Assembly (NCBI RefSeq): GCF_900108515.1
Contig: NZ_FNWW01000008.1
Span: 1-64,000, forward strand
DNA: 64,000 nt
Origin: Halobacillus karajensis
GTDB taxonomy: Bacteria > Bacillota > Bacilli > Bacillales > Halobacillaceae
Direction: 5' to 3'
Position numbers and translations under genes: made by a program. Positions 34,858 to 63,293 of the stretch are shown piece after piece. Positions within the stretch are counted from its first letter, which is position 1; each line of letters starts with the position of its first letter. The notes under the pieces are model-generated. The model was not told the DNA's origin. It did not search any database and saw only the letters and a program-made list of their open reading frames with translations.

Positions 34858-35473
34858 TGGGGCAGAAAATGGGGCAGAATTTCATTATTATTGCCCCATT
34901 TATAACTTAAGATATCCATTTTAATCATAAAGAACGTTGACTTAATAGTGTTCTGTCATAGTCCATCTTATGCATTCCTACCTACTCCAACAGCCTTCTA
35001 AGCTGTTGGTCTTTTTGTTGACGGCATTCTAAACCAATTCGTCAAGGAGAATGTGACTTTTAAAAAGTCACAAGAAAAGTAACGGGGGACAATAATCACT
35101 CGATGTGTATGGTGGAGTGATTGTGGTTTTGCTTCATTAATAAATTCTAAGTGGAGGATACTTGTGAGGTTTTAGAACCTCACAGAAAACCTCACGAATC
35201 GGAAAAGTTCTCTGAAATTACACGAACACATGTTCTGTTTTGCCTGTGTGATTAACACGAATTTAAGGTGAATCACGGAGATGAAAAGTGGGGGAAAACT
35301 CTTTCAAGTATGGGCGGCATGATGTAATAACGCCCGAAATCCTATTATGAAGGGATTTATACCCTTATGTAATCTTTGATTGACATACTTCTTGTCATTC
35401 TAAATAGACAAAACATCATATATTCTAGTTACCCTCTCATGAGTTCGCTGAACTTTTGAGAGGCTTTTTCTTA
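34858..35473 (+). repeat. Dispersed structured repeat, copy B
   Basis: Parts in order: GGGGCAGA...TGCCCCAT hairpin (34871-34901), terminator-like CCAACAGC-CTTCTAA-GCTGTTGG-TCTTTTT (34987-35016), hairpins GTGACTTT/AAAGTCAC, AATCACTC/GAGTGATT and GTGAGGTT/AACCTCAC, a LexA-type box (35223-35236), the core GGGCGGCATGATGT (35312-35325) closing as GGGCG...CGCCC, then a terminator CCCTCTCATGAGTTC...TTTTGAGAGG-CTTTTT (35437-35473). From 34987 to 35326 it is nearly identical to 62875-63205. Confidence 0.8.
35223..35236. promoter_or_regulatory. LexA/DinR box in repeat copy B
   Basis: CGAACACATGTTCT matches the Gram-positive LexA consensus CGAACRNRYGTTYG at all but the last base. The corresponding site of copy C is CGAACATATGTTCC. 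Confidence 0.65.
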
Positions 35474-35851
35474 CATGGTTTCAGTAATTTGCGAATAAAT
35501 CGTGGCATGATTTAAGATTGGTTGATTTATATCCAATTCCTGATTAAGAGGGAAGTTGCAAGGGAGAGATTTAAAAAACACTTATCATATTAAATATAAT
35601 TAAATACGAGCTGTGAATTTGTGAAGGATTATTATATATCAAGCACATAACTATTTCTAATGTATTGAAGTGATAATATTACTTAGTATCTATTTTCATA
35701 AGTGAAAATTTGTCCTCAAATTTCTCCACCAGTATTTTGCTAAGTATGAACATTACATACGTAAGTTCCTTTTTCCAGAAGTCCTAGCAAGTCATTGATA
35801 TCATTTACTCCTACATTCTTTTCTTCGATTTCCTTACTTGTAATAATACCA

Positions 35852-36001
35852 GTAACCGATGCCTACTGTGGGATTGGTATTTTTGCCAATGAGAAAGCTA
35901 GAAAGGTGGTCCACGTAGAGGCAAATAAATATGCGGTTCGAGATGCTATCCCGAATACAAAGCGTAATGGTGTGAAAAATTTAGCTAAAATTGTAGATTG
36001 A
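35852..36001 (+). pseudogene. RlmD/TrmA-type RNA methyltransferase fragment
   Basis: The frame VTDAYCGIGIFANEKARKVV, followed by HVEANKYAVRDAIPNTKRNGVKN in the same frame, is the SAM-binding motif I region of the RlmD/TrmA family of rRNA/tRNA uracil-5-methyltransferases (DAYCG-x-G). Only about 50 of about 450 residues remain, with no upstream TRAM domain or downstream catalytic Cys. Relic. Confidence 0.65.
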
Positions 36002-36106
36002 CGTCGAACAGTGCTTATAATCATTCATTAGTTGCAGGGAACGTATGGTAGAGTATCATCATTTTTTTACAGACATATCGTCTTGTGAAGGAAACGATTG
36101 TCGTTT

Positions 36107-37435
36107 CTACAACGATCTAATCAGTTCATTTAAATCTTCAATATCTTCAAGATTACGAATAGAATCAATGATTTGTTCACGTCTATTTTGAGCGTAATAA
36201 TTGTGGGAGCACATGTGAAACTTGTCTTCGATATCCTTCCAGGAAAACGGCCTTTCCGGATCACCCTTTGTATGATAGATTTCCTCTGTAAAAGTTGTGC
36301 CATCCTTTATTTTTATGATGACCCTTGCTGGACGAGTTTCTGGAAAATGGCGTTCTAAGTCAGGGGCATGAACTAAATGTACTTTATTTATAAGAGACAT
36401 GATATCTTCATCATTTAAGTGATCCTCGGCTACATGAATAGGAGCAACATCCCCATGAACAAGAGCGCAAGCAAGTGTATAGGGGATGCTGTATTGTGCT
36501 TCGACACTTGTGGTAGGCTTTTTATGATCTAGGGTTAGTGCCTTGTCAAAACTCTGCACAGTAATGGTTTGTACATCTGAATGAGAAAAAGGGTTATTAT
36601 TACGAATTTTTAAGGCAGCGGTGATAGGGGAGTGCGTCCACTTGCATGAAGGAAAGGGTTTGAAATATACATGATTGATTTCATATCTATCTCCTAAGTC
36701 TCGGAAAACTTTCGTACTATTTTCCTTGTAAATATCTTTGTCTAACAAAATATCATCGGGTCCTGTAAAGCCCTGGTTCGATAATAACAACGATGATAAT
36801 GCTGTAACAGAGCCCCATCCTACGCTCTCCTTCGTCATAGAACCGTTTGAAATAGATTTTCCACATTGAGCCGTAGGTCCATGAACTTCACATATGGTAA
36901 GAGCGTTTTTAGTACTTTCTTGATTCAACTTCATAAGTTTTGCACCAGCAGCTGCGGCTCCAAATAAAGCCCATCCTCCAGATCCATAAAAACGACTGTC
37001 ATGATGAGAGTTCATTACAATGCCACAGCGAATCGCAATTTCATAACCGCAAATAATCGAAAGCAGCCAATCCCTGCCGTGAACTTTCTCTAATAGATCA
37101 CTAATTGTCCACAATGTAGAGATTACAGTAGACCCAGGATGACCTACAGGCTGGCGATGACCATCATCATAATCAAGAGCACTAGCTTGGGTAGCATTCG
37201 TAAAGACAGCTGCAAATGGTGAGGTTTTCTCCTCCTCTCCAATCACCTTGCATCTGCCTGCTCCCTGTGTTGCTTTGAAAGCTTGTCTACTTATCCGATA
37301 GGCTTTTTCATATTTACCAGCGTAAACACACCCCAACCAATCCAACACACACTTTTTGGCTGTCTCAATAGAATCTTCGGATAAACTTTTATACTCTGTA
37401 TTCTGTAAAAAGTTTACGATATGTTGAACGACCAA
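36107..37435 (-). CDS. MmgE/PrpD family dehydratase/isomerase
   Basis: 442 residues, normal length for MmgE/PrpD (2-methylcitrate dehydratase, cis-aconitate decarboxylase, iminodisuccinate epimerase relatives). Typical motifs: KKCVLDWLGCVYAG, ATQASALDYDDGH with the catalytic DYDD, HPGSTVISTLW, CEVHGPTAQCGKSISNG, YFKPFPSCKWTHSPITAAL. It is transcribed after the rpiR-like regulator (41 bp gap), divergent from the Rieske/BCCT operon, so its substrate is probably an intermediate of the same catabolic route. Not a prp operon: no methylcitrate synthase or methylisocitrate lyase nearby. Confidence 0.85.
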   Translation of the reverse strand: MVVQHIVNFLQNTEYKSLSEDSIETAKKCVLDWLGCVYAGKYEKAYRISRQAFKATQGAGRCKVIGEEEKTSPFAAVFTNATQASALDYDDGHRQPVGHPGSTVISTLWTISDLLEKVHGRDWLLSIICGYEIAIRCGIVMNSHHDSRFYGSGGWALFGAAAAGAKLMKLNQESTKNALTICEVHGPTAQCGKSISNGSMTKESVGWGSVTALSSLLLSNQGFTGPDDILLDKDIYKENSTKVFRDLGDRYEINHVYFKPFPSCKWTHSPITAALKIRNNNPFSHSDVQTITVQSFDKALTLDHKKPTTSVEAQYSIPYTLACALVHGDVAPIHVAEDHLNDEDIMSLINKVHLVHAPDLERHFPETRPARVIIKIKDGTTFTEEIYHTKGDPERPFSWKDIEDKFHMCSHNYYAQNRREQIIDSIRNLEDIEDLNELIRSL

Positions 37436-37476
37436 CTCCTATTCCCCCTTCTTTTGAAGTATGCTAGAAAATTCCT

Positions 37477-38334
37477 TTAAGAGCTAGTAATATTCCTTTC
37501 TCTTAAAACTTTCCCCAATTCATCGAGATGACTGATGGAAGTGTCAGATTTATTTCGACCAAATTCAATGACAAGAGATTCTAATAGGGCAATGGCAGGG
37601 AGAATAGTGTATTGGTTTTTGCTACTTTTTGTGTTGAGAACAATAGAACTATATGAAGCAGCTGGGCATGATGGGAGGTCGGTGATGAGGATAATGGATA
37701 CACCTCTTTCATGCAGAAATTTTGCTACTTCTACACTTTGTATGGTGTAAGGGGCGTTAGCAACTAGAACGAGTGTATCTTTTTCTGTGAGACGGGAGGC
37801 ACGATCATAAATAAAATCACTCTCGTGGCTGAGCTGGATGATATGGGGATAAAATTCTTCCATCAAATGACCAAAATATACAGCTGGGGCTTTAGAAGTA
37901 CGTAATCCGAGTACACTGATTTTTTCAGACTGCACCATTAGCTCAACGGCCTGGTCAAATTCATACATAAGGGACTTCGTAATGGTTTGCTCTAATAATT
38001 TTGTAATCTCACTCCATACATCAGTCAAAATATGTTCTTTTTGATTATCCTCAAATGATTTCTGCATGTGCCACCAAGTAGCACGGGTTGCCACAACTTC
38101 TTTGTGGATGGCTTTTCTTAATTCTAGATAGCTTTCAAAACCTAAAGCTTTCACTACTCTCATGATAGTAGAAACGCCTACATCTGCCTTATGGGAAAGG
38201 TCGGATAGCGTATATGTTTCAATAGAATCGTAGTGTTCTACCAAGTAATCACAGACCTGCTTTTGTTTTTTGGGCAGTTCTTCTTTGATATCAATGATAT
38301 TTTTCTGGATGTGCTTTTTCGTGGGATTGCTCAC
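37477..38334 (-). CDS. MurR/RpiR family transcriptional regulator
   Basis: 285 residues from GTG 38334, which has GAAAGGTGAT a few bases upstream; in-frame ATGs at 38349 and 38376 lack sites. N-terminal RpiR-type helix-turn-helix (about 15-75: KQKQVCDYLVEHYDSIETYT, KADVGVSTIMRVVKALGF) and a C-terminal SIS domain (about 115-265: KISVLGLRTSKAPAVYF, DTLVLVANAPYTIQSVEVA). SIS domains usually bind phosphosugars, yet RpiR proteins also control non-sugar catabolism. It heads the rpiR-mmgE unit and faces the catabolic operon across a 184-bp gap, so it is the likely regulator of both. Confidence 0.85.
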   Translation of the reverse strand: MSNPTKKHIQKNIIDIKEELPKKQKQVCDYLVEHYDSIETYTLSDLSHKADVGVSTIMRVVKALGFESYLELRKAIHKEVVATRATWWHMQKSFEDNQKEHILTDVWSEITKLLEQTITKSLMYEFDQAVELMVQSEKISVLGLRTSKAPAVYFGHLMEEFYPHIIQLSHESDFIYDRASRLTEKDTLVLVANAPYTIQSVEVAKFLHERGVSIILITDLPSCPAASYSSIVLNTKSSKNQYTILPAIALLESLVIEFGRNKSDTSISHLDELGKVLRERNITSS

Positions 38335-38448
38335 TTTATCACCTTTCATATTTATAAATTTGAAAAGCTTCCTCATTCTCTATTCCCAGTATACCAAAAG
38401 CATGGCTAGGTGTTAAGGATTAAAATTGTTCATTTTTAAAATTTATGG

Positions 38449-38477
38449 TTGCATACACTCCTTATGGCTAGTATTCT
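38449..38477 (+). promoter_or_regulatory. Putative sigma-A promoter of the catabolic operon
   Basis: TTGCAT (38449-38454), 17-base spacer, TATTCT (38472-38477), 40 bases before the first ATG. Boxes each have imperfect matches; spacing is optimal. Confidence 0.45.
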
Positions 38478-38517
38478 AAAGGTGTTAAATATTTCTGTAA
38501 ATTTAGGAGGCGCAAAT

Positions 38518-39570
38518 ATGAGTACGGAAACGGCTACGAATCAGGAAGTAAATGTGCGTTGGTTGTCACAGGAAGAGTGTATTGAAGCCGGGGCGAAAAA
38601 CATGGATATGATTCTTGAGTATGTGGAGAAGGTAAATTACTGGTTGGCTGAGGGGAAAGTGGTAGAACCTGAATTGCTGCATCTTCTCTGGGAAGAGGGC
38701 AATTACTCAGGTAAACGAATTGGTGTCCACGCAGCGTTGGTGCGTTCTGAAGAAATGAAAGTGGCGGCTGTTAAAGGGATTCCAAGTAATCCTATGAATC
38801 CAGTTAACTATCAGTCACCACGATCCAATGGCATGATCATTCTCTACAATGATGATACAGGATATCCTTTCGCTGTGATGGATGACACGATTGTAAGCGC
38901 TCTCAGAACGGGAGCTTCCAGTGCGTTGGGAGCTAAATATTGTGCCCGTCCTGACTCAGAAACAATAGGACTCGTGGGATGCGGCGTTATTCAAAACGCT
39001 CATATTGAGGCAACCAGCAAAGTCATGAACCATATCAAAACCGTTAAACTCTATGATCTCAATCAAGATAAAGCTCGTCAGTTTGCTGATAAATGGGAAC
39101 ACTTAGGCTACAATTTTGAAATTTGCGATGATATCGAACAAGCCGTTGCACCTTCTGATATTGTTTATACAGCGACCAACGTTAATTTAGGAAATGAGTA
39201 TATACCTAAGGAATGGATAAAGAAGGGATCCTTCCATTCAGGTGTATCGATGTGGGATCACACAAATGAGGCTATTCTTGAAGGATTCAATAAATATTGT
39301 ATGGATTATAAGCTGAGGCTTAAAGATGATAAATATCCACTTTCTGAGCTGACTAAAGCCGGCAAACTTAAGGAAGATGATATCTCTGAATTAGGGCAAG
39401 TGATGATGAAAAAACAAGTTTGTCGGGAGCATGAAGATGATGCTGTCTTCTTTGTTACCCTCGGGATTTGTGCCACGGACACAGCAAACAGCTATCGCAT
39501 TTATCAGAATGCTAAGGAAAGAGGATTAGGTACTAACGTTAAGCTCTGGTCAACTCCAGCTATGTTTTAG
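38518..39570 (+). CDS. Ornithine cyclodeaminase/mu-crystallin family protein
   Basis: 350 residues from ATG 38518 after TTAGGAGGCGC. OCD/mu-crystallin fold: substrate part with ALVRSEEMKVAAVKGIPSNP and RSNGMIILYNDDTGYPFAVMD, TALRTGA-type box (SALRTGASSALGAKYCA), Rossmann motif TIGLVGCGVIQNAHIEA and DLNQDKA. Family members are NAD(P)-dependent cyclodeaminases, ketimine or pyrroline-2-carboxylate reductases. Placed before a P5C-type dehydrogenase and a Rieske oxygenase, a role in converting a proline- or ornithine-like intermediate is likely. First gene of the operon. Confidence 0.8.
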   Translation: MSTETATNQEVNVRWLSQEECIEAGAKNMDMILEYVEKVNYWLAEGKVVEPELLHLLWEEGNYSGKRIGVHAALVRSEEMKVAAVKGIPSNPMNPVNYQSPRSNGMIILYNDDTGYPFAVMDDTIVSALRTGASSALGAKYCARPDSETIGLVGCGVIQNAHIEATSKVMNHIKTVKLYDLNQDKARQFADKWEHLGYNFEICDDIEQAVAPSDIVYTATNVNLGNEYIPKEWIKKGSFHSGVSMWDHTNEAILEGFNKYCMDYKLRLKDDKYPLSELTKAGKLKEDDISELGQVMMKKQVCREHEDDAVFFVTLGICATDTANSYRIYQNAKERGLGTNVKLWSTPAMF

Positions 39571-39582
39571 ATCTCAACATAA

Positions 39583-39609
39583 AAGGAGGGAGCGTTCGAT
39601 CCCTCCTTC
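39583..39609 (+). terminator. Hairpin between the OCD-like gene and the aldehyde dehydrogenase
   Basis: AAGGAGGGA-GCGTTCGA-TCCCTCCTT, followed by CCATTAT rather than a T run. Probably an mRNA-stability or partial attenuation hairpin inside the operon. Confidence 0.5.
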
Positions 39610-39639
39610 CATTATCAATCTAGTAAAGGGGTGAAGACG

Positions 39640-41187
39640 GTGGCAATTGCATCGTTTGTGAATGAAACAAACATAAATTGGAACGAAGCGGAGAATGAAA
39701 AGGTTCTTAGGGAAAAAATTTATGAAGTTCAGGCACGCTTTTCTGCCCATTATCCACTAGTGATCGGTGGAGAGCGGGTATATAAAGAGGATGAAAAACT
39801 TTCCTATAATCCTTCCAATCATGAGCAGGTCGTAGGTTATGTGAGTCAAGCTGCAAAAGAGGATATTGATGAAGCGATATTTTCGGCAAGAAATGCATCG
39901 CTTTCCTGGGGGTTGAAATCTTTCAGAGAGAGGGCCAGCTATATTTTTAAAATGGCTCAAGAGATTCGAAAAAGAAAATCCGAACTAATTGCTTGGCATG
40001 TGATGGAAGCAGGAAAGAATTGGGATGAATCCGAAGGTGACATTAATGAAGCCATTGATTTTCTTGAAATGTACGGAAGAAAAGCCATTGAGCTTGGAGA
40101 AGAAACGGATCTAAAGAAGGAGCAGCGTCTTGATAATCGAATGGAATATTTGCCACTTGGAACGGGTGTGATCATCCCTCCGTGGAATTTCCCTTTTGCC
40201 ATTCTTACAGGTATGACAGCCTCAGCCATTGTGACGGGAAATACGGTTCTTGTCAAACCTTCTTCCGCGACACCGGTCATCGGTTATCAGTTCATGGAAA
40301 TTCTAGAGGAAGTAGGCTTTCCTCCTGGTGTTGTTAATTTTGTCCCAGGATCTTCAAGAAAGATTGGGGACTATATGGTAGGTCATCGTGATGTGAACTT
40401 TGTGTCCTTTACGGGTTCTAAAGAGGTCGGGGTTCACATCGATGAAGTAGCTCATAGGAGAGTTGAAGGGCAACGATGGATCAAACGAGTCATTTCTGAG
40501 ATGGGAGGAAAAGACGGTATTGTCGTTGACCAGTCTGCAGACTTGGAGGAAGCAGCCCAAGCCATTGTAACTTCCGCGTTTGGGTTTCAAGGTCAGAAAT
40601 GTTCAGCAGGATCTCGGGCGATTATTCATGAGGACGTATATGATTCATTAACTGAGAAAGTGGTTTCCTTGACGACGCAATTATCAAAAGGTTCTCCAGT
40701 TGAAAATAATGAGGCTGGACCAGTCATCGACAGAGCCTCCTTTGATAAAATCTCTCAATATATTGAAAGAGGTATGAAAGAAGCAGACCTCATCGAAGGG
40801 GGAGGGACGGATGATAGTTATGGATATTATATCGATCCGACCATTTTCACTAATGCCCCTTATGAATCTGCCATCATGAAGGAAGAGATTTTCGGACCCG
40901 TACTGGCTATGACAAAAGTTTCTTCTTTTGAAGAAGGAATCGATGTTTTTAATAATACTGAATATGGCCTGACAGGATCGTTGTTCACTCGCAACCGTGA
41001 TCATATCGAGTACGCCAGACGCTTTATGACATGTGGGAATTTGTTTTTCAATGGGAAATGTACAGGAGCCGTTGTTGGCGTCCAGCCTTTTGGAGGTTAT
41101 TATATGTCCGGCACTGGAGCCAAAACAGGAACGCTTGATTACTTGAAACATTTTGTACAAACGAAGACCACCTCTGAAATTTTATGA
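39640..41187 (+). CDS. 1-pyrroline-5-carboxylate dehydrogenase-type aldehyde dehydrogenase (RocA-like)
   Basis: 515 residues from GTG 39640, eight bases after AAAGGGG. It follows B. subtilis RocA closely in layout: HYPLVIGGERVY start, GVIIPPWNFPFAILTGMTA, VNFVSFTGSKEVG, RVISEMGGKDG with catalytic Glu287, GFQGQKCSAGSR with catalytic Cys321, EEIFGPVLAM, and CTGAVVGVQPFGGYYMSGTG. RocA-type enzymes oxidise P5C/glutamate semialdehyde to glutamate. In this operon it would finish degradation of a proline-derived osmolyte, or oxidise a related aldehyde. Confidence 0.85.
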   Translation: MAIASFVNETNINWNEAENEKVLREKIYEVQARFSAHYPLVIGGERVYKEDEKLSYNPSNHEQVVGYVSQAAKEDIDEAIFSARNASLSWGLKSFRERASYIFKMAQEIRKRKSELIAWHVMEAGKNWDESEGDINEAIDFLEMYGRKAIELGEETDLKKEQRLDNRMEYLPLGTGVIIPPWNFPFAILTGMTASAIVTGNTVLVKPSSATPVIGYQFMEILEEVGFPPGVVNFVPGSSRKIGDYMVGHRDVNFVSFTGSKEVGVHIDEVAHRRVEGQRWIKRVISEMGGKDGIVVDQSADLEEAAQAIVTSAFGFQGQKCSAGSRAIIHEDVYDSLTEKVVSLTTQLSKGSPVENNEAGPVIDRASFDKISQYIERGMKEADLIEGGGTDDSYGYYIDPTIFTNAPYESAIMKEEIFGPVLAMTKVSSFEEGIDVFNNTEYGLTGSLFTRNRDHIEYARRFMTCGNLFFNGKCTGAVVGVQPFGGYYMSGTGAKTGTLDYLKHFVQTKTTSEIL

Positions 41188-41211
41188 TAATTGCATGAGA
41201 GGAGAATGACC

Positions 41212-42366
41212 ATGAAGACCATTGAGGGTGGATGGCCGGCGCACGCGAAGTTTGAGCCAACGTTTCTAGGTTACGAGTATAAGGATGAAGAGAACTTTCG
41301 TAAAGAAATAGAAAAAATTTGGATGAAAACTTGGCTTTTGGCAGGGCGAAGTGAAGAGATTCCTAATGTAGGAGACTACTTTACCATTCAATTGGAAAAC
41401 GAAAATTTGATCTGCATGAGGACTCAGAGCGGGAATGTGCACACGTATTTCAATGTGTGCAGGCACCGGGGTTCAAGACTTTGCGAAGAAGGCACGGGAA
41501 ATATGTCTAAAGGATATATTACTTGCCCTTATCATAGCTGGATGTATGACAGTGAAACCGGGCAGTTGAAAAGTGCACCTAATATCCCAAGAGACACAGA
41601 AGAATTCTCCTGTAGCCAAGTTCATTTACATTCCGTAAAAACGGAACTTTGGGACGGGTATATATGGATTAACATGGACGAAAACGCTCCTTCATTAGCG
41701 GAGAGTTTCCGCTTACCTGAGTCCTGGGTACCCTACGAAAAATATAATATGGAAAATTTGAAAATAGGGGCTCAGGATACCTATAAGGTAAAGGCTAACT
41801 GGAAGCTGCTTATGGAGAATGCTTCAGAGTGTTATCACTGCGGGAATATTCATCCAGAGCTAAGCAGGGTTACTCCTCCGACAAGCCAGCGTCAATGGAT
41901 TGACGAAAGCATTCCGGAAACAGAGGTATTAAAACATGTAGGGGCCATGAAATTAAAGAAAGGCTTTGAAAGGGTCAATATGGATGGGAAAGCCTATCGG
42001 AAGCCTTTTTCCCAATTAACGGCAGATGATGAATCAGCGATCTATTATGTACACATCTTCCCGCATTCCTATATTTGTATGGCTTCGGATTATGTGTTTA
42101 TCGCTGCCATGTGGCCAATCAGCGTATCTGAAACTTTAGTAAAAGGGTATTGGCTTTTTGACCCTGAAGCCCTCGAGAGTGGAGAACCTATTCAGGATGC
42201 GGTAGATATTTGGGATGTGACCAGCCAAGAAGACTGGGCAGCTTGTGAATGGGCACAAAAAGGGAATCAATCGAGAGTATATGAAAGTGGAGGCATCCTT
42301 ACGCCGATTGATTGGCGAGTGGCAAATTTTAAACAATTCGTATACAACAAAATGGAAGATCTCTAA
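41212..42366 (+). CDS. Rieske non-heme iron oxygenase, alpha subunit
   Basis: 384 residues from ATG 41212 after GAGAGGAGA. Rieske centre ligands Cys83-x-His85 (NVCRHRGSRLC) and Cys105-x-x-His108 (CPYHSWMYD). Mononuclear iron ligands in ENASECYHCGNIHPEL (His209, His214). These enzymes hydroxylate or demethylate; the closest functional types are oxygenases that demethylate quaternary amines (stachydrine, carnitine, glycine betaine). Its own ferredoxin and reductase follow, giving a complete three-component system, and a BCCT carrier closes the operon, which supports a betaine substrate. Exact substrate unproven. Confidence 0.85.
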   Translation: MKTIEGGWPAHAKFEPTFLGYEYKDEENFRKEIEKIWMKTWLLAGRSEEIPNVGDYFTIQLENENLICMRTQSGNVHTYFNVCRHRGSRLCEEGTGNMSKGYITCPYHSWMYDSETGQLKSAPNIPRDTEEFSCSQVHLHSVKTELWDGYIWINMDENAPSLAESFRLPESWVPYEKYNMENLKIGAQDTYKVKANWKLLMENASECYHCGNIHPELSRVTPPTSQRQWIDESIPETEVLKHVGAMKLKKGFERVNMDGKAYRKPFSQLTADDESAIYYVHIFPHSYICMASDYVFIAAMWPISVSETLVKGYWLFDPEALESGEPIQDAVDIWDVTSQEDWAACEWAQKGNQSRVYESGGILTPIDWRVANFKQFVYNKMEDL

Positions 42367-42386
42367 TAAATGGAGGGGTGAAAGAG

Positions 42387-42716
42387 GTGAGTGAAGTGGC
42401 AAATAAGAACCAATTGTTCTATGTAGATGAGTTAGCGGCTATTGAAGAAGAAGAACCCAGAGAAGTTTTGGCTGGAACTATGACGCTGGTGGTTGGTAAA
42501 TGGAATGGGGAAGTCTATGCGGTTGATGGCATTTGTACCCATGCTTATGCGGAGCTTGCAGAAGGAGATATGGATGAACACTGCTTATATTGTCCTCTTC
42601 ACCTTGCTGCTTTTGACATACGGGATGGCAGCGTGATTGATGGACCTACAGACCAGCCTCTTTCGACATATGAAGTCGTAGTGGAGGACGGACAGGTGTG
42701 GATTAACTTAGGATAG
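42387..42716 (+). CDS. Rieske-type [2Fe-2S] ferredoxin
   Basis: 109 residues from GTG 42387 (GGAGGGG eight bases upstream; GTG 42378 is too near the site). Ligands Cys50-x-His52 (ICTHAYAEL) and Cys69-x-x-His72 (YCPLHLAAF). Small soluble Rieske ferredoxins of this length shuttle electrons from a flavoprotein reductase to the terminal oxygenase; both partners are the adjacent genes. Confidence 0.85.
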   Translation: MSEVANKNQLFYVDELAAIEEEEPREVLAGTMTLVVGKWNGEVYAVDGICTHAYAELAEGDMDEHCLYCPLHLAAFDIRDGSVIDGPTDQPLSTYEVVVEDGQVWINLG

Positions 42717-42726
42717 GAGCGTGAGC

Positions 42727-43962: not shown

Positions 43963-43988
43963 GCAAAACATAATGAGGAGGAGGTAGG

Positions 43989-45856: not shown

Positions 45857-45958
45857 GGGCGGCATTATGTAAGGTCCTCCTTACACATCCCCTTATGTAA
45901 TAAAGTTACCAAACGAAAGAGCTTACTTCCTCAATGGGGGGAAGTAAGCTCTTTTGTT
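45857..45958 (+). repeat. Dispersed repeat, right-end fragment D with terminator
   Basis: Core GGGCGGCATTATGT (one mismatch to the other four), stem TGTAAGG/CCTTACA, then CAAACGAAAGAG and a strong terminator. It aligns with the right end of copy C only; the left, LexA-box part is missing. Confidence 0.65.
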
Positions 45959-52633: not shown

Positions 52634-52728
52634 AAAGTATTTTTGATACGATTTTGTTCTTGTTTTTACAAAAATATTTTGTGGCAGGTCTCTCTTCAGG
52701 ATCTGTTAAAGGGTAAAGGAGCGTATAT

Positions 52729-54048: not shown

Positions 54049-54058
54049 AATTAACTAA

Positions 54059-54107
54059 AATCTCCGTATCCTCCAATTTCTTAAGGGTACGGGGAGATAA
54101 AATTTTG
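54059..54107 (+). terminator. Terminator after melA
   Basis: ATCTCCGTATCC pairs with GGGTACGGGGAGAT, followed by AAAATTTTG. It separates melA from the gal genes, which then need their own promoter. Confidence 0.65.
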
Positions 54108-54111
54108 ACTA

Positions 54112-54313
54112 AACATCGAAGTCTATCTGGAAGATCAACGGGTGTTTTCTGCAGTTGAAGGAGTTAACAAGCGGATGAGGCACTAGTTGATCATGAGTTT
54201 TGAAAATGGTGGATTATTATTACCCTCAGAGATTTAAAGGAGACGTTATTTGCCAGAAACATTTGCTGGATGGATCGTTAGATAACTTTTAGAAGGAAAT
54301 AGATGCAAAGTAA
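54112..54313 (+). pseudogene. Relic of a second sugar-binding protein gene (3' end)
   Basis: Frames read NIEVYLEDQRVFSAVEG and, after a shift, YYPQRFKGDVICQKHLLDGS, then DNF-stop-KEIDAK-stop. They match the C-terminal part of the binding protein at 47412-48644 (NIEIYLESQRMFSAVEG; YYPQGFPVDVIFQDYLLDGT). The relic has a frameshift and an in-frame stop. It implies that a second ABC cassette once stood before the gal genes, or that the cluster was rearranged by recombination between paralogues. Confidence 0.75.
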
Positions 54314-54324
54314 AAGCGTTTAGC
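54310..54324. promoter_or_regulatory. Possible cre-like site before galK
   Basis: GTAAAAGCGTTTAGC has the AAGCGTTT core of catabolite-responsive elements but mismatches at the edges. It lies about 105 bases before galK, at the end of the binding-protein relic. Confidence 0.3.
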
Positions 54325-54428
54325 AAAAAAGTAGGTATTAGTCACCACAGAGGGAGGGGGATTATTTTTATATAATGATTAAATTAAACAAATTAACTAA
54401 TTATTACGGTTAGAAATGAGGTGGACCA

Positions 54429-55601: not shown

Positions 55602-56587
55602 CGGTTCTTGTATGTGGAGGAGCAGGATATATTGGAAGCCATGCAGTTGCTCAACTTCTCGATCGTAACGAAAAAGCGGTCGTAGTGGATAATTTACAAA
55701 AAGGACATGGAGAGGCGATTTTGGACGGGGTCACCTTTTGTCACGGTGACTTGCGTGATCAAGCATTTCTTGATCGCGTCTTTCAAGAAAACGAGATTCA
55801 CTCAGTCATACACTTTGCGGCAGACTCCCTTGTCGGAGAGAGTGTAGAAGATCCTTTACAATACTATGATAACAATGTTTACGGTGCCACCTGTCTTTTG
55901 AAAGCGATGGCAAGACACGAAGTGAAACAAATAGTTTTTTCCTCAACAGCTGCCGTCTATGGGGAGCCAGAGCATGTACCTATTCAAGAAGATGATCGGG
56001 CTGTACCAACCAATCCGTATGGGGAAACCAAGCTTGCCATTGAAAAAATGCTTCAATGGGCAGAACAAGCTCACGGTATCAAACATGTTGTGCTTCGTTA
56101 CTTTAATGTGGCAGGTGCCGATCCGGACGGCAGGATTGGGGAAGACCACCGACCTGAAACCCACTTGATCCCGATTGTCTTACAAGTTGCCCAAGGAAAG
56201 CGTGAGAAGATCATGATTTTTGGCGATGACTATCCGACGGAAGATGGGACATGTATTCGTGATTATATCCATGTCAACGATTTAGTGGATGCACACCTTC
56301 TAGCCATTGATAAACTGGAAAGTGATGGGGAGAGTGCAATCTATAACCTCGGGAACGGCCGAGGATTCAGCGTGAAAGAGGTCATTGATACAGCACGAAG
56401 AGTTACCGTCCATCCCATCCCTGCTGAAGTTTCTCCACGTCGACCAGGCGATCCTGCTCAGCTTGTTGCATCCTCAGAAAAAGCGATCAAGGAACTTGGA
56501 TGGAAGCCAAAGTATAAAGGATTAGATCCAATGATCCAAACCGCTTGGGATTGGTTCCGGGCACATCCCGATGGATACGAAAAATAA
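55598..56587 (+). CDS. galE: UDP-glucose 4-epimerase
   Basis: 329 residues. Short-chain dehydrogenase fold with VCGGAGYIGSHAV (NAD binding), VIHFAADSLVGES, SSTAAVYGEP and catalytic YGETK, RYFNVAGADPDG, and the C-terminal GWKPKY box. It interconverts UDP-galactose and UDP-glucose. ATGA overlap with galK and 22 bases to galT give a tight galKET operon in the usual order for bacilli. Confidence 0.95.
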   Translation: MTVLVCGGAGYIGSHAVAQLLDRNEKAVVVDNLQKGHGEAILDGVTFCHGDLRDQAFLDRVFQENEIHSVIHFAADSLVGESVEDPLQYYDNNVYGATCLLKAMARHEVKQIVFSSTAAVYGEPEHVPIQEDDRAVPTNPYGETKLAIEKMLQWAEQAHGIKHVVLRYFNVAGADPDGRIGEDHRPETHLIPIVLQVAQGKREKIMIFGDDYPTEDGTCIRDYIHVNDLVDAHLLAIDKLESDGESAIYNLGNGRGFSVKEVIDTARRVTVHPIPAEVSPRRPGDPAQLVASSEKAIKELGWKPKYKGLDPMIQTAWDWFRAHPDGYEK

Positions 56588-56609
56588 GCGAAAGGCTTGG
56601 TGAGCGGAG

Positions 56610-58121
56610 ATGACCATCTATCAAGACATCGAACGATTAATTCAATATGGTTTAAACAAAGAGATGATTTCAGTTTGGGATATCGATTACGTTCGCAACC
56701 GTTTGTTTCAACTATTCGAACTTAATGGGAAAAAGCCGGAACCTTTAAATGAGGGGCAGAAGCCTAATAACCCTGTCCCTATTTTGGAAAAAATGCTCGA
56801 TTTTTCCATTGAGCAGGGCTTGCTTGAAGATCATACAACAACAGATCGGGACCTTTTTGATGCGAAAATCATGGACACTCTCGTTCCAAGACCATCCGAA
56901 GTGGTTAGGAACTTTTATCATACGTTTGAGAAACAAGGACCGGAATCGGCCACGGATTATTTTTATCAACTGTCTAAGGATGCGCATTATATTAGAACGG
57001 ATCGCATCGCTAAAAATAGGCATTGGTACAGTGAAACAGACTATGGAAATTTGGAGATCACTATCAATTTGTCAAAACCGGAAAAAGATCCAAAAGCGAT
57101 TGCAGCTGCCAGGGCGCATACAGGTACAAAATATCCCGAGTGTCTGTTATGTAAAGAGAACGTTGGGTATGCAGGGCGGCTAGACCATCCTGCTCGGGAT
57201 AATCACCGGATCATTCCGATCGATCTCGAAGGAGAGCATTGGTTTTTACAATACTCCCCTTATGTCTATTACAATGAGCATGCGATTGTCTTCTCTCGCG
57301 AGCATCGTCCGATGGAAATATCGCAAGAGGGCTTACAGCGTTTACTGGATTTCACTGATCAACTTCCTCATTATTTTGTGGGTTCAAATGCGGATCTTCC
57401 CATTGTCGGTGGTTCGATTTTGAGCCATGATCACTTTCAAGGAGGCCATCACGAATTCCCAATGGCGAAAGCGGCGATTGAACAGGCATTCACGGTCCCA
57501 CATTTCGAAGACATAACAGTAGGGATCGTTCGTTGGCCGATGTCAGTGATCCGTCTTCGTGGAGACGACCGACACCGCCTATCCGAATTGGGGGGATTAG
57601 TCTTGAATTCCTGGCGCTCCTATTCGGATGAAGATGCGGATGTGTATGCTGAAACAAATGGTGAACCCCATAATACAATTACACCGATCGCTCGTTACCG
57701 AAAAGGTCATTATGAGTTGGATCTTGTATTGAGAAACAACCGCACGAGTGAGGAGCATCCGATGGGTATATTCCATCCTCATGAAGAAGTTCATCATATA
57801 AAAAAAGAGAACATCGGCTTAATTGAAGTTATGGGACTTGCCGTCTTACCAGGGCGTTTAATCGATGAAATGGAACAGCTCACCGAGTATATCCTTGCTG
57901 CTCAACTGGATACATATGCCCTTGAAGATGAGCACACAGCAAAACACGTGTCATGGGCAAAAAAAATCGATTGGAATCTATCGTCAGAAAAGGACTTATG
58001 GAATGATGTACAACATCAAATAGGCAAACGCTTTTCCACGGTGTTGGAACATGCAGGAGTCTTTAAAAGGAACCAAGAGGGCCAAGCAGCCTTCCAGCGT
58101 TTTATTGAACAAATAGGATAA
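56610..58121 (+). CDS. galT: Galactose-1-phosphate uridylyltransferase, class II
   Basis: 503 residues, the length of the Firmicutes type II GalT (about 490-500), longer than the type I enzyme. N-terminal VWDIDYVRNRLFQLFEL; active-site region GGSILSHDHFQGGHHEFPMA; ECLLCKENVGYAGRLDHPAR. It transfers UMP between UDP-glucose and galactose-1-phosphate, completing the Leloir pathway. A terminator follows. Confidence 0.95.
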   Translation: MTIYQDIERLIQYGLNKEMISVWDIDYVRNRLFQLFELNGKKPEPLNEGQKPNNPVPILEKMLDFSIEQGLLEDHTTTDRDLFDAKIMDTLVPRPSEVVRNFYHTFEKQGPESATDYFYQLSKDAHYIRTDRIAKNRHWYSETDYGNLEITINLSKPEKDPKAIAAARAHTGTKYPECLLCKENVGYAGRLDHPARDNHRIIPIDLEGEHWFLQYSPYVYYNEHAIVFSREHRPMEISQEGLQRLLDFTDQLPHYFVGSNADLPIVGGSILSHDHFQGGHHEFPMAKAAIEQAFTVPHFEDITVGIVRWPMSVIRLRGDDRHRLSELGGLVLNSWRSYSDEDADVYAETNGEPHNTITPIARYRKGHYELDLVLRNNRTSEEHPMGIFHPHEEVHHIKKENIGLIEVMGLAVLPGRLIDEMEQLTEYILAAQLDTYALEDEHTAKHVSWAKKIDWNLSSEKDLWNDVQHQIGKRFSTVLEHAGVFKRNQEGQAAFQRFIEQIG

Positions 58122-58149
58122 GGCTACGAAAGTTCCAAATAAATAATAA

Positions 58150-58196
58150 CCAAAAGACCACCTCATTTTCTGGTTGTCTTGAGGTGGTCTTGTTTC
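58150..58196 (+). terminator. Terminator of the galKET operon
   Basis: AAGACCACCTC pairs with GAGGTGGTCTT around TGGTTGTC, followed by GTTTCC. Strong stem, modest T tract. Confidence 0.8.
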
Positions 58197-58478
58197 CTCG
58201 CCCGATATCAGGCCTGAAATATTGTTATAGTAGTAAGTGAGATAGATACCTCAGATTAGCCAGAGGGGACCACTTTGAGTTCATTGAACTTTTGGGGGCT
58301 TTAATTTTATGATGGAATAATACCCCTTGTTTTTCAGTAATTGGAATACCTCTTCGTGAATATGTTGTCTTATATAACTGCTATGGCCGGCTTTCGGTGG
58401 TACTTCCGCTGGATAATGACTGGATTTTGTTTATTAAACTGATATCTTATTTTTTATTAATTAGTTAATACAGTGAAT

Positions 58479-58492
58479 GGGCGGCATGATGT
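58479..58492. repeat. Dispersed repeat core, isolated copy E
   Basis: GGGCGGCATGATGT followed by GTGATA as in copy A. Flanks otherwise differ from the long copies; upstream at 58265-58312 is GAGTTCATTGAACTTTTGGGGGC, reminiscent of the terminators of copies A and B. The region 58200-58850 has no gene. Confidence 0.55.
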
Positions 58493-58847
58493 GATAATAT
58501 TTATAGCTCTTTAAGGGTTTATTACCTTGGGGATTGAGAAGACTCATATTTATTGAATTTGATACTTCCGCGGAAAAAGTTTCTGTTGTATATAATATTA
58601 TGGCATAGCTTAATTGATTTAGTTTTAAAGGTTTTTGTTAAAGTTTTGGATATGCTATTGGAATTTTTGTACATTTGTGAAATAATTCTTTGTAGCAAGT
58701 GATCTCCCCTTAAAAATAATCCATTTGCTAAACAAAAAGACTCTGTGGTGATCGAAGCATCCGTTGTCTAAAAGATACCTTAAAAGTATTACTTGGCCAT
58801 CAAAGATAAAGACGTAAGAGGCAAAAAGGATATAAAGTTTGAAGGTA

Positions 58848-58880
58848 GGCCCCGGGTTAAGACTGGGGCCTTTTCTTTGT
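58848..58880 (+). terminator. Rho-independent-type terminator
   Basis: GGCCCC-GGGTTAAGACT-GGGGCC followed by TTTTCTTT. No plus-strand gene is visible just upstream, so it may end a non-coding transcript or be a relic. Confidence 0.6.
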
Positions 58881-59063
58881 TTAATGAGTTGTGAATGATT
58901 TACCTCCAATCATTTTTTCTTCCAATCGATCAATTTTGCTCTGTAGGATGCCAGAATATCCAGCCATATCTAAATATAACTCCAATAATTCATTATCCAT
59001 ATCGTTATGATGCTTCCTTAAAATTGCTCCCCATTCTTCTAACTTGGTCATAAGGTCTTCCAA
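58881..59063 (-). CDS. Small hypothetical helical protein
   Basis: 60 residues from TTG 59063, eight bases after AAAAGGAG; GTG 59072 is in frame but overlaps the site. Two helices (LMTKLEEWGAILRKHHNDMD; ELLELYLDMAGYSG) and a basic end. No Cys, no span. Unknown family; it stands alone. Confidence 0.5.
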   Translation of the reverse strand: MEDLMTKLEEWGAILRKHHNDMDNELLELYLDMAGYSGILQSKIDRLEEKMIGGKSFTTH

Positions 59064-59166
59064 ATTGAACACTCCTTTTCTTTTTCACCTTGTTATTCGA
59101 CAAGTAGTCTAAAAGTCCTTCGTAAAAATTGTAAAATAAATTACTTATTTACTTTGTAATAATATA

Positions 59167-59180
59167 GGAACGAACGTTTG
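59167..59180. promoter_or_regulatory. LexA/DinR box before a yolD relic
   Basis: GGAACGAACGTTTG matches CGAACRNRYGTTYG except at the first base and lies 17 bases before the ATG of the relic. yolD-uvrX type operons are classical LexA targets in bacilli. Confidence 0.6.
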
Positions 59181-59197
59181 TGATAGAGGTGTAATTA

Positions 59198-59266
59198 ATG
59201 GATGGATGTAATCGGGATTGAGGGACTATTAAATGGACCTCGTTAATAAAAGAACAGTAGGGGATT
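59198..59266 (+). pseudogene. YolD-like protein, N-terminal relic
   Basis: ATG 59198 (AGAGGTG upstream) reads MDGCNRD, TGA, then GTIKWTSLIKEQ. NRDRGTIKWTS is the typical start of YolD-like SOS proteins, with TGA in place of CGA (Arg). The rest of the gene and the expected Y-family polymerase are missing. Confidence 0.65.
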
Positions 59267-59516
59267 GCCCTTTTTAATTATCACGTATTATTTTCTTTCT
59301 TCAAGTTTTAATCAAGATTTCCATACAGTTTTTTGTATATACCTACACTTTTTCAATCCACATAGGAATTTTCCTTCTTAACATCAAAATCAAATATTAG
59401 TTCACTATACTTGATTTGACTAAATTTCAAATCGACAACACTAAATAGATTTACATATATAGTTATTTATTGGAGAAACTGAAGGTTAAGGAATATCCTA
59501 TTTTGGAGGGATGAAA

Positions 59517-60530
59517 ATGGATTCTACTCAACCATACGATATCAAATTAACATCGGCGGAGATAACAAATTTATGGGCTACATACATGAATGACAGTGGT
59601 ACCATCTGCCATTTAAAATATTACCTAAATACAGTGGAAGATACGGAAATTAAATCTGTAATTCAATATGCATTAGACATTTCACAATTGCACGTTAACA
59701 CAATAACCGAGATATTTACTCGGGAAGGTTACCCTGTTCCTCATGGTTTTAAATTAAATGAAGATGTTGATGTGACTGCACCAAGGTTGTTTTCTGATAC
59801 TTATTATTTAAATAACGTTAATCAATTGGGAAAGATTAGTTTAAATGCATATAGCATGGCTTTACCTGTTGCAGTAAGAGAAGATGTTTATAGCTTTTTT
59901 AGTCAATGTTTAAGTGAATCAGATGCCCTTATCAAACAAACGAATGATATATTATTGGCAAAGGGTCTGTTTATCAGGTCACCATATCTCCCAATACCTG
60001 AATCATATGATTTTGTAGAACAGAAAAGTTTTTTGGCAGGCTTTTTTGGAGAAAAAAGACCCCTTACAGGTACCGAAATTACAAACCTATATACCAACTT
60101 TCAAAGGAACGCATTAGGGGCAGCCACCCTGATTGGCTATAGCCAAGTTGCCCAGGATGAAGAAGTAAAACAGTTTCTATTAAGAGGAAAGGAAATGGCA
60201 AATAAGCATTGTGAAATATTTGGTTCACTCTTAAAGCAAAGTGATTTACCCTGTCCTATGACATGGGACACAGAGGCTACTGACTCTACTACGTACACTT
60301 TTTCTGACAGGAAAATGATGTTTTATACAACAAGTTTAATTGCACTTAGTGTAGGATACTACGGAGGAAGCATGTCCATGAGTCCAAGAAGGGATATTGG
60401 CGTTATGTATAGCAGATTAGTTGCGGAAATATTAAAATACGCTGATGACGGGGCTAAAATCATGATTAAAAATGGGTGGATGGAAGAACCGCCACGGGCA
60501 TTAGACCGTGATGAACTATCCAAAAAATGA
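59517..60530 (+). CDS. DUF3231 family protein (two repeats)
   Basis: 337 residues from ATG 59517, six bases after GGAGGG; ATG 59511 is too close. Two homologous halves: LTSAEITNLWATYMNDSGTI (about 11-30) and LTGTEITNLYTNFQRNALGA (about 181-200), each a four-helix ferritin-like bundle as in CotF/DUF3231 spore-related proteins. The end SRLVAEILKYADDGAKIMI, then NGWMEEPPRA is characteristic. It overlaps the next gene by 20 bases. A role in the spore or its coat is inferred from the family. Confidence 0.75.
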   Translation: MDSTQPYDIKLTSAEITNLWATYMNDSGTICHLKYYLNTVEDTEIKSVIQYALDISQLHVNTITEIFTREGYPVPHGFKLNEDVDVTAPRLFSDTYYLNNVNQLGKISLNAYSMALPVAVREDVYSFFSQCLSESDALIKQTNDILLAKGLFIRSPYLPIPESYDFVEQKSFLAGFFGEKRPLTGTEITNLYTNFQRNALGAATLIGYSQVAQDEEVKQFLLRGKEMANKHCEIFGSLLKQSDLPCPMTWDTEATDSTTYTFSDRKMMFYTTSLIALSVGYYGGSMSMSPRRDIGVMYSRLVAEILKYADDGAKIMIKNGWMEEPPRALDRDELSKK

Positions 60531-60998
60531 AATAGTAGAGGAAAAAAGCAAAGTTCTTGAAGCAATTTTTTGGAGTGTTGCATTGCCTGGCTTTGCACAA
60601 ATCCTAAACGGAAAGATATTAAAGGGTTTCGTGTTTATTGTTTTGGAAATTTTCATTAATGTTAAATCAAACTTTAATGAAGTTATTTATTTAAGTTTTC
60701 ATGGAAGAATTGAGGAAGCCATTGTACAAACAGATTATCAGTGGCTAATGTTTTATCCCTGCTTGTACATGTTTGCAGTGTGGGATGCACATAAAGATGC
60801 TGGTGGTGGAAAAGAACCCTTTTCATTATGCCATTTGTATTTTCTGCATTTTTTTTAACAGTTGGTTTAATATTTTCATCAACGTTTAAAATTGGTGGGC
60901 TTCTTTTAGGTTCAGTGTGGCTACCTATAATTTTTTTGCCTGTTGGGATAGTGTTAGGGTGTTTAATTAAGTCAATCTTGCTAAAGATTGTTAAATAA
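60511..60998 (+). pseudogene. Membrane protein gene with one-base shift
   Basis: Starts at ATG 60511 within the DUF3231 gene. Reads KVLEAIFWSVALPGFAQILN, GFVFIVLEIFINV, YMFAVWDAHKDAGGGKEPF. At about 60822-60828 one base seems lost (TTTCATTATG for TTTCATTTATG); the -1 frame then continues PFVFSAFFLTVGLIFSS to ILLKIVK and TAA at 60998. The full product would be about 162 residues with four spans (TM2-like small membrane protein). A decayed duplicate lies at 33600-34010, so DUF3231 plus this gene may form a recurring pair. Confidence 0.65.
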
Positions 60999-61332
60999 AT
61001 TGGATGTTTTTGCTTATTAGTGAACGATACAGACTACATTAAAAATCCACTAACTTAAATTTAGTGAAAAAGAATTAGTTAATAATGTTTATTTCTCAGA
61101 ATATCACGGGTATACAAATAAAGACACAGGATTGGATTGGGGGCTTTCATGCCCCCTTTTGTTATGATTAAGATTGTTCTTCCCCCTAGTTTCATTATAA
61201 ACACTACCTTCGTTCTGAATGACAAGAACGCCTTTATTGGGGATGCTTTCATAGCTTATAATAATGTTAAATAGAAAGAAACCACCTTAGCTTCTTTTTA
61301 GATATAATTTATTTTTTTAAGGGTGTTAAATT
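60999..61332. other. Intergenic region shared with 33900-34075
   Basis: Contains a terminator GGGGGC-TTTCAT-GCCCCC-TTTT (61138-61161). From about 61110 to 61235 it aligns with 33955-34070 (ACACAGGATTGG, TTTCATTAT, CACT, CCTTC, TCTGAATGACAAG). No gene. Confidence 0.6.
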
Positions 61333-61764
61333 GTGACTCATGAGTTTCCAAGAACTAAAGAAGATAAACTATTGAACAAGTATTTTGAAGACGAGGGAGG
61401 TCATTTATTTTTAGAGGTCCCTGTTGGATCTAATAGAAGAAATCATATTTGGCCAAAGGGATCAAAGACAAGAAGATTTGATGGCGTGATCTTTCCTAAT
61501 GATAAGAGTAAAATATATAATTATAGGAATTATGAGCACACATTTAATTCATTAATTACTTCTAATTATGAATTAGAAGTAATAGAGGTTAAGAACAGGC
61601 TCAATAGGTTAGTAATAGGTCAAATTATAGCTGGATATGATATGTTCAAAAGAGAGTATGCGGATAAACTCATCAATTGTAGGATAATATGTTCTGAAGG
61701 TGATCCGGCTCTTGAGTGGGTATGTGAACAGAGAAATATCAAAGTAAGTATCTATGAGAATTAG
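61333..61764 (+). CDS. Orphan protein with PD-(D/E)xK-nuclease-like core
   Basis: 143 residues from GTG 61333 (AAGGGTG upstream). The core KTRRFDGVIFP, later YELEVIEVKNRLNRLVIGQI, then ICSEGDPALEWVCEQR, follows the alpha-beta-beta-beta pattern with Asp at the first strand and E-x-K (EVK) in the next, as in PD-(D/E)xK endonuclease-like folds. A helix with Gln (GQIIAGYDMF) follows, as in several of these families. No partner methylase or helicase is present. Function unknown; DNA repair or defence are possibilities. Confidence 0.5.
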   Translation: MTHEFPRTKEDKLLNKYFEDEGGHLFLEVPVGSNRRNHIWPKGSKTRRFDGVIFPNDKSKIYNYRNYEHTFNSLITSNYELEVIEVKNRLNRLVIGQIIAGYDMFKREYADKLINCRIICSEGDPALEWVCEQRNIKVSIYEN

Positions 61765-61901
61765 AGAAGCTGTTATGGGAAGCCAATTTTAATTCTTAAT
61801 TGTGTATCCCTGAAGATTATATTGTGAATAAAATAAACACACCTACTGAACGTGGCACTATCGAGGATATGCAATTACTAGCGGTGTCACGTTAACATTT
61901 T

Positions 61902-62151
61902 TATGAACTATCGGGGGCAACCCTGCTGGGAGTGTGCTTAACCCAGGGCCTTGGAATTTTACTTACAGCCTTAATAGTTTTAGCTTTAATAAGATACTTT
62001 AGCTATCTGTTGGTTTCAACTTTTAAGGGAGAGATGCGTATGATAAATATCGCTTATCAAGTAAAATTAACTGCTTCATCAGTACTTGAAACATTATGGG
62101 CTGTAGGAGTTAGTTACTTGGTCGGGACTAGCTTGTCCCCGATAGTTCATA
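61902..62151. mobile_element. MITE-like element with 19-bp terminal inverted repeats
   Basis: TATGAACTATCGGGGGCAA (61902-61920) and TTGTCCCCGATAGTTCATA (62133-62151) are inverted repeats with one mismatch, 250 bp end to end. The inside has no transposase; an ORF through it (61932-62168) lacks a convincing ribosome site and would encode two hydrophobic stretches. Just left of it CGTGGCAC / GTGTCACG (61849-61891) forms another palindrome, possibly the insertion target. Confidence 0.5.
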
Positions 62152-62262
62152 AAGAATATTTATATTAAATATCGAAAAAATGTAAGCGCCAAATATTGCC
62201 CACCTTCTAACCTTCAAAAGTCTATGAGATACTAACCTCATAACTTTTTAGGAGGAGTGTTG

Positions 62263-62561
62263 ATGACTAAACAGGACAAAAAATCGCTTTGGGAAGACCG
62301 ATTGGTTCACTTTCATGAATCAGGTCAAACGGCTAAGGAATGGTGTTCAGAGCATCAAATTAATATTCATACCTTCCGGTACTGAAAAAGAAGATACAGG
62401 CGCCCCTTCATCAAGATTCTTCGTGGGTAGCTGTAGAAGTAGAAGACATTTCCCGACGCTCATCAGTACATATTTCGATCGGACGAGCGACGAAAGCGTC
62501 CGAGGATATCCATCCTGATCATCTAGCCAACGTGCTGAAAGTGGTTCAAGCGACATGTTGA
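62263..62561 (+). pseudogene. IS66 family accessory gene tnpA, frameshifted
   Basis: ATG 62263 after TAGGAGGAG. The frame KSLWEDRLVHFHESGQTAKE, then WCSEHQINIHTFRYW is the IS66 TnpA start. The codon TGG after TAC is TGA because one G is lost near 62382. The shifted frame KKKIQAPLHQDSSWVAVEVE runs to TGA 62561. Confidence 0.75.
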
Positions 62562-62680
62562 ATGATGCCTCTGTTGAAAAGGTATATCTAGCACAGGGTT
62601 GTATAGATTTATGAAAGTCGATTGATGGGCTAGCGATCCTGGTTCAGGAACCTTTGACTACATTACATGAATACCCGATA
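62555..62680 (+). pseudogene. IS66 family tnpB, 5' relic
   Basis: ATG 62555 overlaps the tnpA end, as in IS66 elements. LNDASVEKVYLAQGCIDL, TGA (for CGA, Arg), KSIDGLAILVQE is the IS66 Orf2/TnpB start. Homology fades after about 62670; the DDE transposase gene tnpC is absent. Confidence 0.7.
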
Positions 62681-62737
62681 CTCCTTCAATTGGTAATATA
62701 TAATGAAGAAACTCAAGTAATTAAGAATATGTTCCTT

Positions 62738-63293
62738 TGGGGCAGAAATGGGGCAGAATTTCATAATTATTGCCCCATTTCTATTTGGATCCATCAGATT
62801 TAATCCCCAAAGAGCTTAATTTGCTGGTATTACAACCTTACTTGTAAAGTTTTATCATATGCACTCCAACAGCCTTCTAAGCTGTTGGTCTTTTTTTGAC
62901 GGCATTCTAAACCAATTCGTCAAGGAGAATGTGACTTTTAAAAAGTCACAAGAAAAGTAACGAGGGAAAATAATCACTCGATGTGTATGGTGGAGTGATT
63001 GTGGTTTTGCTTCATTAATAAATTCTAAGTGGAGATACTTGTGAGGTTTTAGAACCTCACAGAAAACCTCACGAATCGGAAAAGTTCTCTGAAATTACAC
63101 GAACATATGTTCCCTTTTTTGCCTGTGTGGTTAACTCGAATTTAAGGTGAATCACGGAGGTGAAAAGTGGGGGAAAACTCTTTCAAGTATGGGCGGCATG
63201 ATGTAAGGTTTCTCTTACACTTCGCCCCTTATATAACAAAGCTATCAAACGAAAGAGGACTACTACCTTTATTGGAAAGTAGTCTTTTTTTTT
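62738..63293 (+). repeat. Dispersed structured repeat, copy C
   Basis: Same order of parts as copy B: GGGGCAGA/TGCCCC hairpin, CCAACAGC/GCTGTTGG terminator-like hairpin (62875-62904), GTGACTTTT/AAAAGTCAC (62931-62949), AATCACTC/GAGTGATT (62972-63000), GTGAGGTT/AACCTCAC (63041-63060), LexA box (63100-63113), core GGGCGGCATGATGT (63191-63204) with inner stem TGTAAG/CTTACA closing on CGCCCC, and a final terminator GGACTACT.../AGTAGTC-TTTTTTTTT ending near 63293. Its right flank resembles copy D instead of copy B. Confidence 0.8.
63100..63113. promoter_or_regulatory. LexA/DinR box in repeat copy C
   Basis: CGAACATATGTTCC is one base from the ideal Gram-positive SOS box. The site is conserved with copy B although the bases around it vary. 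Confidence 0.7.

Follow-up and report, generated by a model that had tools for sequence, protein, structure and literature searches.

The window, a 64,000-nucleotide stretch of DNA from Halobacillus karajensis, holds five copies of a 14-base core, GGGCGGCATGATGT, all of them on the + strand. A preliminary description of this DNA had called the core five-fold; it is indeed repeated, as four exact copies and a fifth, core D, that reads GGGCGGCATTATGT and has a single mismatch, compared with a mean of 0.14 and a largest count of 2 in 100 shuffles. From core to core the window divides into four units, whose cargo includes galactose, betaine-type transport and germination genes. Unit A-B carries genes for a small tyrosine recombinase, DUF1538 and P-II proteins, Na/H exchangers and a GerA-type operon; unit B-D, a Rieske oxygenase, an aldehyde dehydrogenase, a BCCT transporter and others; unit D-E, a LacI regulator, a melibiase, a galactose-1-P uridylyltransferase and sugar-transport-like ORFs; and unit E-C, a DUF3231 protein and short ORFs. 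The features are listed below, with the cores located by a core search and the arms numbered from the core.

19398..19414, + strand: right-end arm pair GTCAC/GTCAC of copy A, type VII, -132/-120 from the core
19530..19543, + strand: core of copy A, exact, identical to the groEL 3' end at C17:29176
19530..35325, + strand: unit A-B, 15.8 kb, with differing end types (I left, V right)
19740..20339, + strand: 199-aa protein, PF00589 over residues 26-187, a tyrosine recombinase of catalytic-domain size
34859..35006, + strand: tRNA-Arg-type right end of copy B, GGGGCAG repeats at 34859 and 34871
35067..35084, + strand: second arm pair of copy B, GTCAC/GTAACG, -245/-233 from the core; the same in copy C
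35160..35311, + strand: groEL-type right end of copy B, CCTCAC arms (type V) at 35178 and 35190, -134/-122
35312..35325, + strand: core of copy B, exact
35312..45870, + strand: unit B-D, 10.5 kb, type II at both ends
35326..35472, + strand: left end of unit B-D, GACATAC arm (type II) at 35382 and a terminator-like hairpin
45721..45856, + strand: right end ahead of core D, GACATAC pair (type II), -136/-124
45857..45870, + strand: core D, one mismatch
45857..58492, + strand: unit D-E, 12.6 kb, ends not typable
58479..58492, + strand: core E, exact
58479..63204, + strand: unit E-C, 4.7 kb, right end type V, left end not typable
62739..62885, + strand: tRNA-Arg-type right end of copy C, GGGGCAG at 62739 and 62750, anticodon-arm core at 62867-62885
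63037..63190, + strand: groEL-type right end of copy C, CCTCAC arms at 63055 and 63067, -136/-124 from the core
63191..63204, + strand: core of copy C, exact

Three of these cores belong to longer repeats, copies A, B and C, and much of what had been said of them stands. B (34858-35473) and C (62738-63293) are 97% identical over query bases 1-315 of 333 (96-98% in ungapped blocks), copy A is a diverged relative of both (82% over 67 bases, 92% over 36), and none of the three contains an ORF of 100 aa or more. The repeats are real, but their appearance suits neither an RNA gene nor one single element. Each copy has paired short direct repeats 12 bp apart, about 135 bp ahead of the core, which resemble the arm sites of integrases; in copy B, an inverted CCTCAC copy lies directly ahead of the arms at 35178 and 35190. 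Read together with their cores, copies A, B and C are the right ends of core-bounded units.

The core itself led to a gene. At up to one mismatch, the window's own genome contains 14 copies (nine exact), compared with one for the reversed control, and one of the exact copies, at C17:29176, forms the tail of groEL (...MGGMGGMM-stop). A 20-base version of the core found at least 118 stretches in other bacterial genomes, and among the matches listed all 118 have the MGGMM-stop ending. The groEL end was exact for the core in all 19 genomes in which it was compared, the window's own included. By sequence, then, the core is the last bases of groEL (MGGMM-stop), so that the borders of the units are the groEL 3' end, as in groEL-targeted tyrosine-integrase elements, and it apparently serves such integrases as an attachment site. 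Read in the groEL frame, the core and the two bases that follow it end in a stop codon at 42 of the 43 exact cores outside groEL, compared with an expectation of 3 in 16 under equal base use; the left ends therefore look fit for a place behind groEL.

The arm repeats keep a regular distance from the core. Exact 6-mer direct repeats spaced 11 or 12 bp apart start within -140..-131 at 31 of the 43 non-groEL exact cores, whereas any other upstream 10-bp bin holds two at most and control spacings give no peak. On the right of the unit, upstream of the core, arm repeats fall within -142..-118 at 33/43 cores; a left-side pair within +52..+90 occurs at 23 of 62 sites only, so that a fixed distance is seen on both sides but less strongly on the left. 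The repeats are of several types, GACTGG (I), GACATAC (II), GCTCAT/GCTAAC (III), CCTCAC (V) and GTCAC (VII). We counted 45 core-to-core units, a number that includes at least two at probable chance one-mismatch cores (G004 28293 and G005 C4:7303, neither typed at both ends) and, for genomes G002, G019 and G021, covers the surroundings of some cores. Twelve of the 45 were untypable, and 33 could be typed at both ends. Ends were of equal type in 24 of the 33 and mismatched in 9; with arm motifs that were picked after inspection of the sequences, the shuffle mean was 13.06 and none of 20,000 shuffles reached 24. On these counts arm geometry is fixed, and matching arms at the two ends of a unit are commoner than chance. 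Within the window only one of the four units (B-D) has matching ends; A-B is mismatched, D-E and E-C could not be typed, and the GACTGG repeat of core E lies near -61, away from -124.

Both B and C have a composite make-up, in which a tRNA-Arg-type end (about 34858-35010 in copy B) is joined to a groEL-type end (about 35157-35311), and the order in both copies is tRNA-Arg-type right end, second arm pair GTCAC/GTAACG, groEL-type right end. The left part had been thought to resemble the 3' end of a gene; what it holds is the anticodon arm of tRNA-Arg(UCU), with the anticodon-arm core CAACAGCCTTCTAAGCTGT at 34988-35006 in copy B. Other genomes contain the left 155 bp of B and C by itself, ahead of a tRNA-Arg 3' half, so the two copies join separate end types. 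G006 has both an intact tRNA-Arg (tct) and, 8.5 kb away, a displaced 3' half, and G019 has a similar join of tRNA-Arg-type and groEL-type ends, with type I arms. Elsewhere in the window's own genome, at C12, C21 and C13, different sequence comes after the tRNA-type end. We also considered cargo common to tRNA-Arg islands and groEL units; the longest such piece, 2.7 kb over reverse-transcriptase-like ORFs, was read by eye as a group II intron and lends the idea no weight.

Core-bounded units form same-strand arrays in Halobacillus, the genus to which plasmid matches point: two of the congeneric genomes have contigs 100% identical to plasmids of H. litoralis and H. halophilus DSM 2266, the latter a 16-kb plasmid matched in G009. 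The clearest case is G017, a single contig with eight exact cores on one strand over 59 kb (3793121-3851961), the first of them at groEL. Five exact cores, again on one strand, extend over 108 kb in G014 and over 34 kb in G007, where the row closes with a terminator like that directly after groEL in G003. At least three exact 18-base sites are present in 23 of 44 genomes of the family, compared with 3 of the 191 genomes in the order sample that lie outside it (hand count, groEL included). The array of G047 lies about 1.6 Mb from groEL, so a relocation or a second site must be explained there. The window's cores sit on a contig that has no junction with groEL, and no other flank in the comparison matched the 16 kb that follow copy C. 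We considered G003 as a clean empty site: the terminator after its groEL core is like the row ends of G007 and G002, but the flank beyond differs, and it serves as a junction comparison only. A protein from the G007 flank was likewise set aside as a marker of the native locus (no match in G014 or G011, 46-64% identity elsewhere, none beside the window array). Neither a circle nor a vacant site from the same strain was observed.

Most units carry cargo without an integrase. Their sizes range from about 2 to 69 kb, and in a hand count over eight genomes, 26 of 33 had no PF00589 domain and 7 had one; PF07508 gave two matches, neither within an array of these eight genomes. As far as these two families go, most units have attL/attR borders and no recombinase, as CIMEs do. 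The 199-aa protein is the only PF00589 recombinase in the window units. The same cargo can occupy different places: a compact unit that lacks an integrase and encodes two proteins resembling ThrE (so named by eye) adjoins groEL in G009, where it measures 2.0 kb, and in G015, is second in G017 and last in G007. The first units (7.0 kb) of G007 and G010 are 98.3% identical, compared with 94.4% for groEL, and in 27 of 33 pairs, which are not independent, common unit stretches are more alike than groEL. This suggests that units have been transferred between species.

Integrases are present in some larger elements at the same site. The unit directly behind groEL in G014 is a 49.6-kb prophage (judged by eye from phage-like ORFs) with a PF00589 gene beside the core at its left end and, at both ends, CCTCAC arms, which are the arms of B and C. 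G016 has a left end similar to that of G014 followed by genes of conjugative look, and at the groEL of G000 a like left end with type II arms precedes conjugative-looking genes up to the contig end (both by eye). Among viral records, GBSV1 has the exact core between GACCAC arms on both sides with an integrase adjoining, an attP-like arrangement. Of 82 viral stretches found, 80 sites were counted, and at 25 of them an opposed integrase ORF starts +50..+160 from the core; seven of these 25 have arms on both sides and seven were labelled groEL, by a loose rule under which some sites labelled otherwise look like groEL ends. The right end of B had no blastn match in phage records. A groEL-adjacent prophage is already in print: phiOH2 is reported to adjoin groES and groEL and to have its integrase at its end (PMC3744691, PMC8303945). 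Its record holds no core with fewer than two mismatches. The arrays and these phages share integration beside groEL, and GBSV1 further shares the exact core, two-sided arm pairs and an adjacent integrase; phiOH2 and GBSV1 are single phages, for which the accessible portions of the reports describe no rows of cargo units.

These observations very probably mean that each patch is the attachment-site end of an integrative unit whose insertion point is the groEL tail. A tyrosine integrase from an element of prophage or conjugative type would take a circular unit and recombine its core with the one at groEL or in another unit, and the right-end patch and the short left end would hold the paired arm sites for it. 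The left end would supply the stop codon that leaves GroEL intact, and repeated insertion would build up rows of units, among them presumably the window array. Most units, which carry cargo and no recombinase, probably depend for their movement on integrases that act in trans and recognise the arms, and some may still be moving. Two suggestions of the preliminary description are recovered here in altered form. The attachment-site end of a lost integrative element fits as an attachment-site end, but the units are present rather than lost; and a non-autonomous mobile element is apt in that most units lack an integrase, but the patches are unit ends and not whole elements.

It had also been suggested that B and C are an SOS-induced structured RNA; on this reading LexA would be the repressor and the hairpins the working part of the RNA. 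The LexA-type boxes, CGAAC-N4-GTTC, are there at 35223 and 63100 (at least two matches arose in 2 of 100 shuffles), as are hairpins and terminator-like ends. However, the palindrome is kept in only two of seven homologous ends, and no Rfam family matched the window at gathering scores. The proposed covariation check found both partners changed in one of 43 predicted pairs and gave a covariation term of -0.13 over seven sequences, in which the main hairpin hardly varies and many pairs are invariant and hence silent. Where A and B differ in their hairpin arms, a third copy, direct and unpaired, differs in step, a pattern that binding repeats would give, and we regard an SOS RNA as exceedingly improbable. 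The presence of B and C, almost identical and non-coding, in a single genome would also suit a self-mobilising, MITE-like small repeat that spreads the core and its flank alone. Against this, the core is accompanied by several unrelated types of right and left end, and array cores run on one strand starting from groEL, which makes such a repeat very unlikely. We also considered ends of a Tn554-like transposon, with a GATGTA core; the core here is groEL, and the proteins scanned near the copies lack such a gene set.

A further question is whether integrative units of this kind still move. The arrays could be fossils of autonomous elements whose integrases were deleted, leaving the units immobile, and the mismatched ends of 9 of the 33 typed units, an integrase beside groEL in G017 that is split in two pieces, and remnants of one gene set ahead of both B and C agree with this. 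The differing array places of the ThrE-like unit and the high similarity of unit stretches relative to groEL speak against it, and we find it possible but rather doubtful. Beyond insertion at the groEL tail, we offer only tentatively that the groEL 3' end is, in this family, the entry to a chromosomal cassette bank, in which standardised integrase-free cassettes would be gained, lost and reordered in trans by resident ICE and prophage integrases of several arm specificities, and the composite ends of B and C would give two addresses, groEL and tRNA-Arg.

Among the papers listed by a literature search, which covered few subscription journals, none dealt with cassette arrays at groEL in Bacillaceae or Halobacillus. 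In salt-loving bacteria, rows of units stand at the groEL tail; some of these units contain virus genes, and many contain common metabolic ones. A non-coding repeat thereby becomes a readable map, its core marking the borders of units gained for osmoprotection, sugar use and germination in halophiles, and the system offers a natural test of helper integrases that would move integrase-free cassettes through common arm sites. Several known systems are comparable. In streptococci, CIMEs and tandem ICE accretion stack attachment-site-bounded units without an integrase of their own at a gene 3' end. The window arrays are alike in their tandem, integrase-free, att-bounded units, but they concern another genus and another gene, include numerous small units with metabolic genes and combine several arm types in one array, and their mobilisation is putative. 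Tycheposons form tyrosine-recombinase-linked cargo rows at a conserved chromosomal site and use tRNA genes; the arrays described here share the cargo rows at a conserved site and differ in the groEL target and in neighbours of ICE and prophage type. Integron cassette arrays are one-orientation cargo rows parted by a repeated site. The window arrays resemble them in their oriented rows and differ in units of about 2 to 69 kb and in having arm pairs and a groEL core as sites.

The genes for phage tail, connector and lysin at 676-14074 of the window may constitute the left part of the unit (a core-to-core stretch of mobile DNA) that ends at core A, and the start of this lysin is similar to that of the lysin in the prophage following groEL in genome G014. 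A sodium/proton exchanger gene is present twice in adjacent units together with its flank, at 14432-16576 and 26669-28809, with 71-81% similarity between them. One copy was annotated as follows:
26637-28133, exchanger copy with a PF00999 match

Remnants of the same genes are common to the stretches preceding B (33611-34079) and C (60540-61239), with 79-86% similarity in ungapped blocks. The left flank beginning AAGG, which follows cores D (45871) and C (63205) of the window, recurs at further positions:
G000 (the window's own genome) contig C11:354824, AAGG left flank
G014 1671507, AAGG left flank
G018 21816, AAGG left flank
G047 3081138, AAGG left flank
Most of these flanks, in the window and elsewhere, have a terminator-like end, and an arm pair, the putative integrase sites, was not found in any of them.

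Elsewhere in G000, three right ends of the tRNA-Arg type (C12:385446, C21:3915 and C13:624255; loci L331, L339 and L340) are followed by no tRNA half, and all three share the sequence TTGGTC...GTTGAC in its place. The element adjoining groEL in G000 (C17:1-29176; L179, L180) reaches the contig end, close to which a reverse-transcriptase-like ORF was read by eye; the meeting of this element with the contig end near that ORF may account for the splitting of the array over contigs. A single contig of G047 bears two core arrays (L344-L352), the first beginning at groEL (2968448) and the second, without groEL, lying ~1.6 Mb away at 4755008-4825263.
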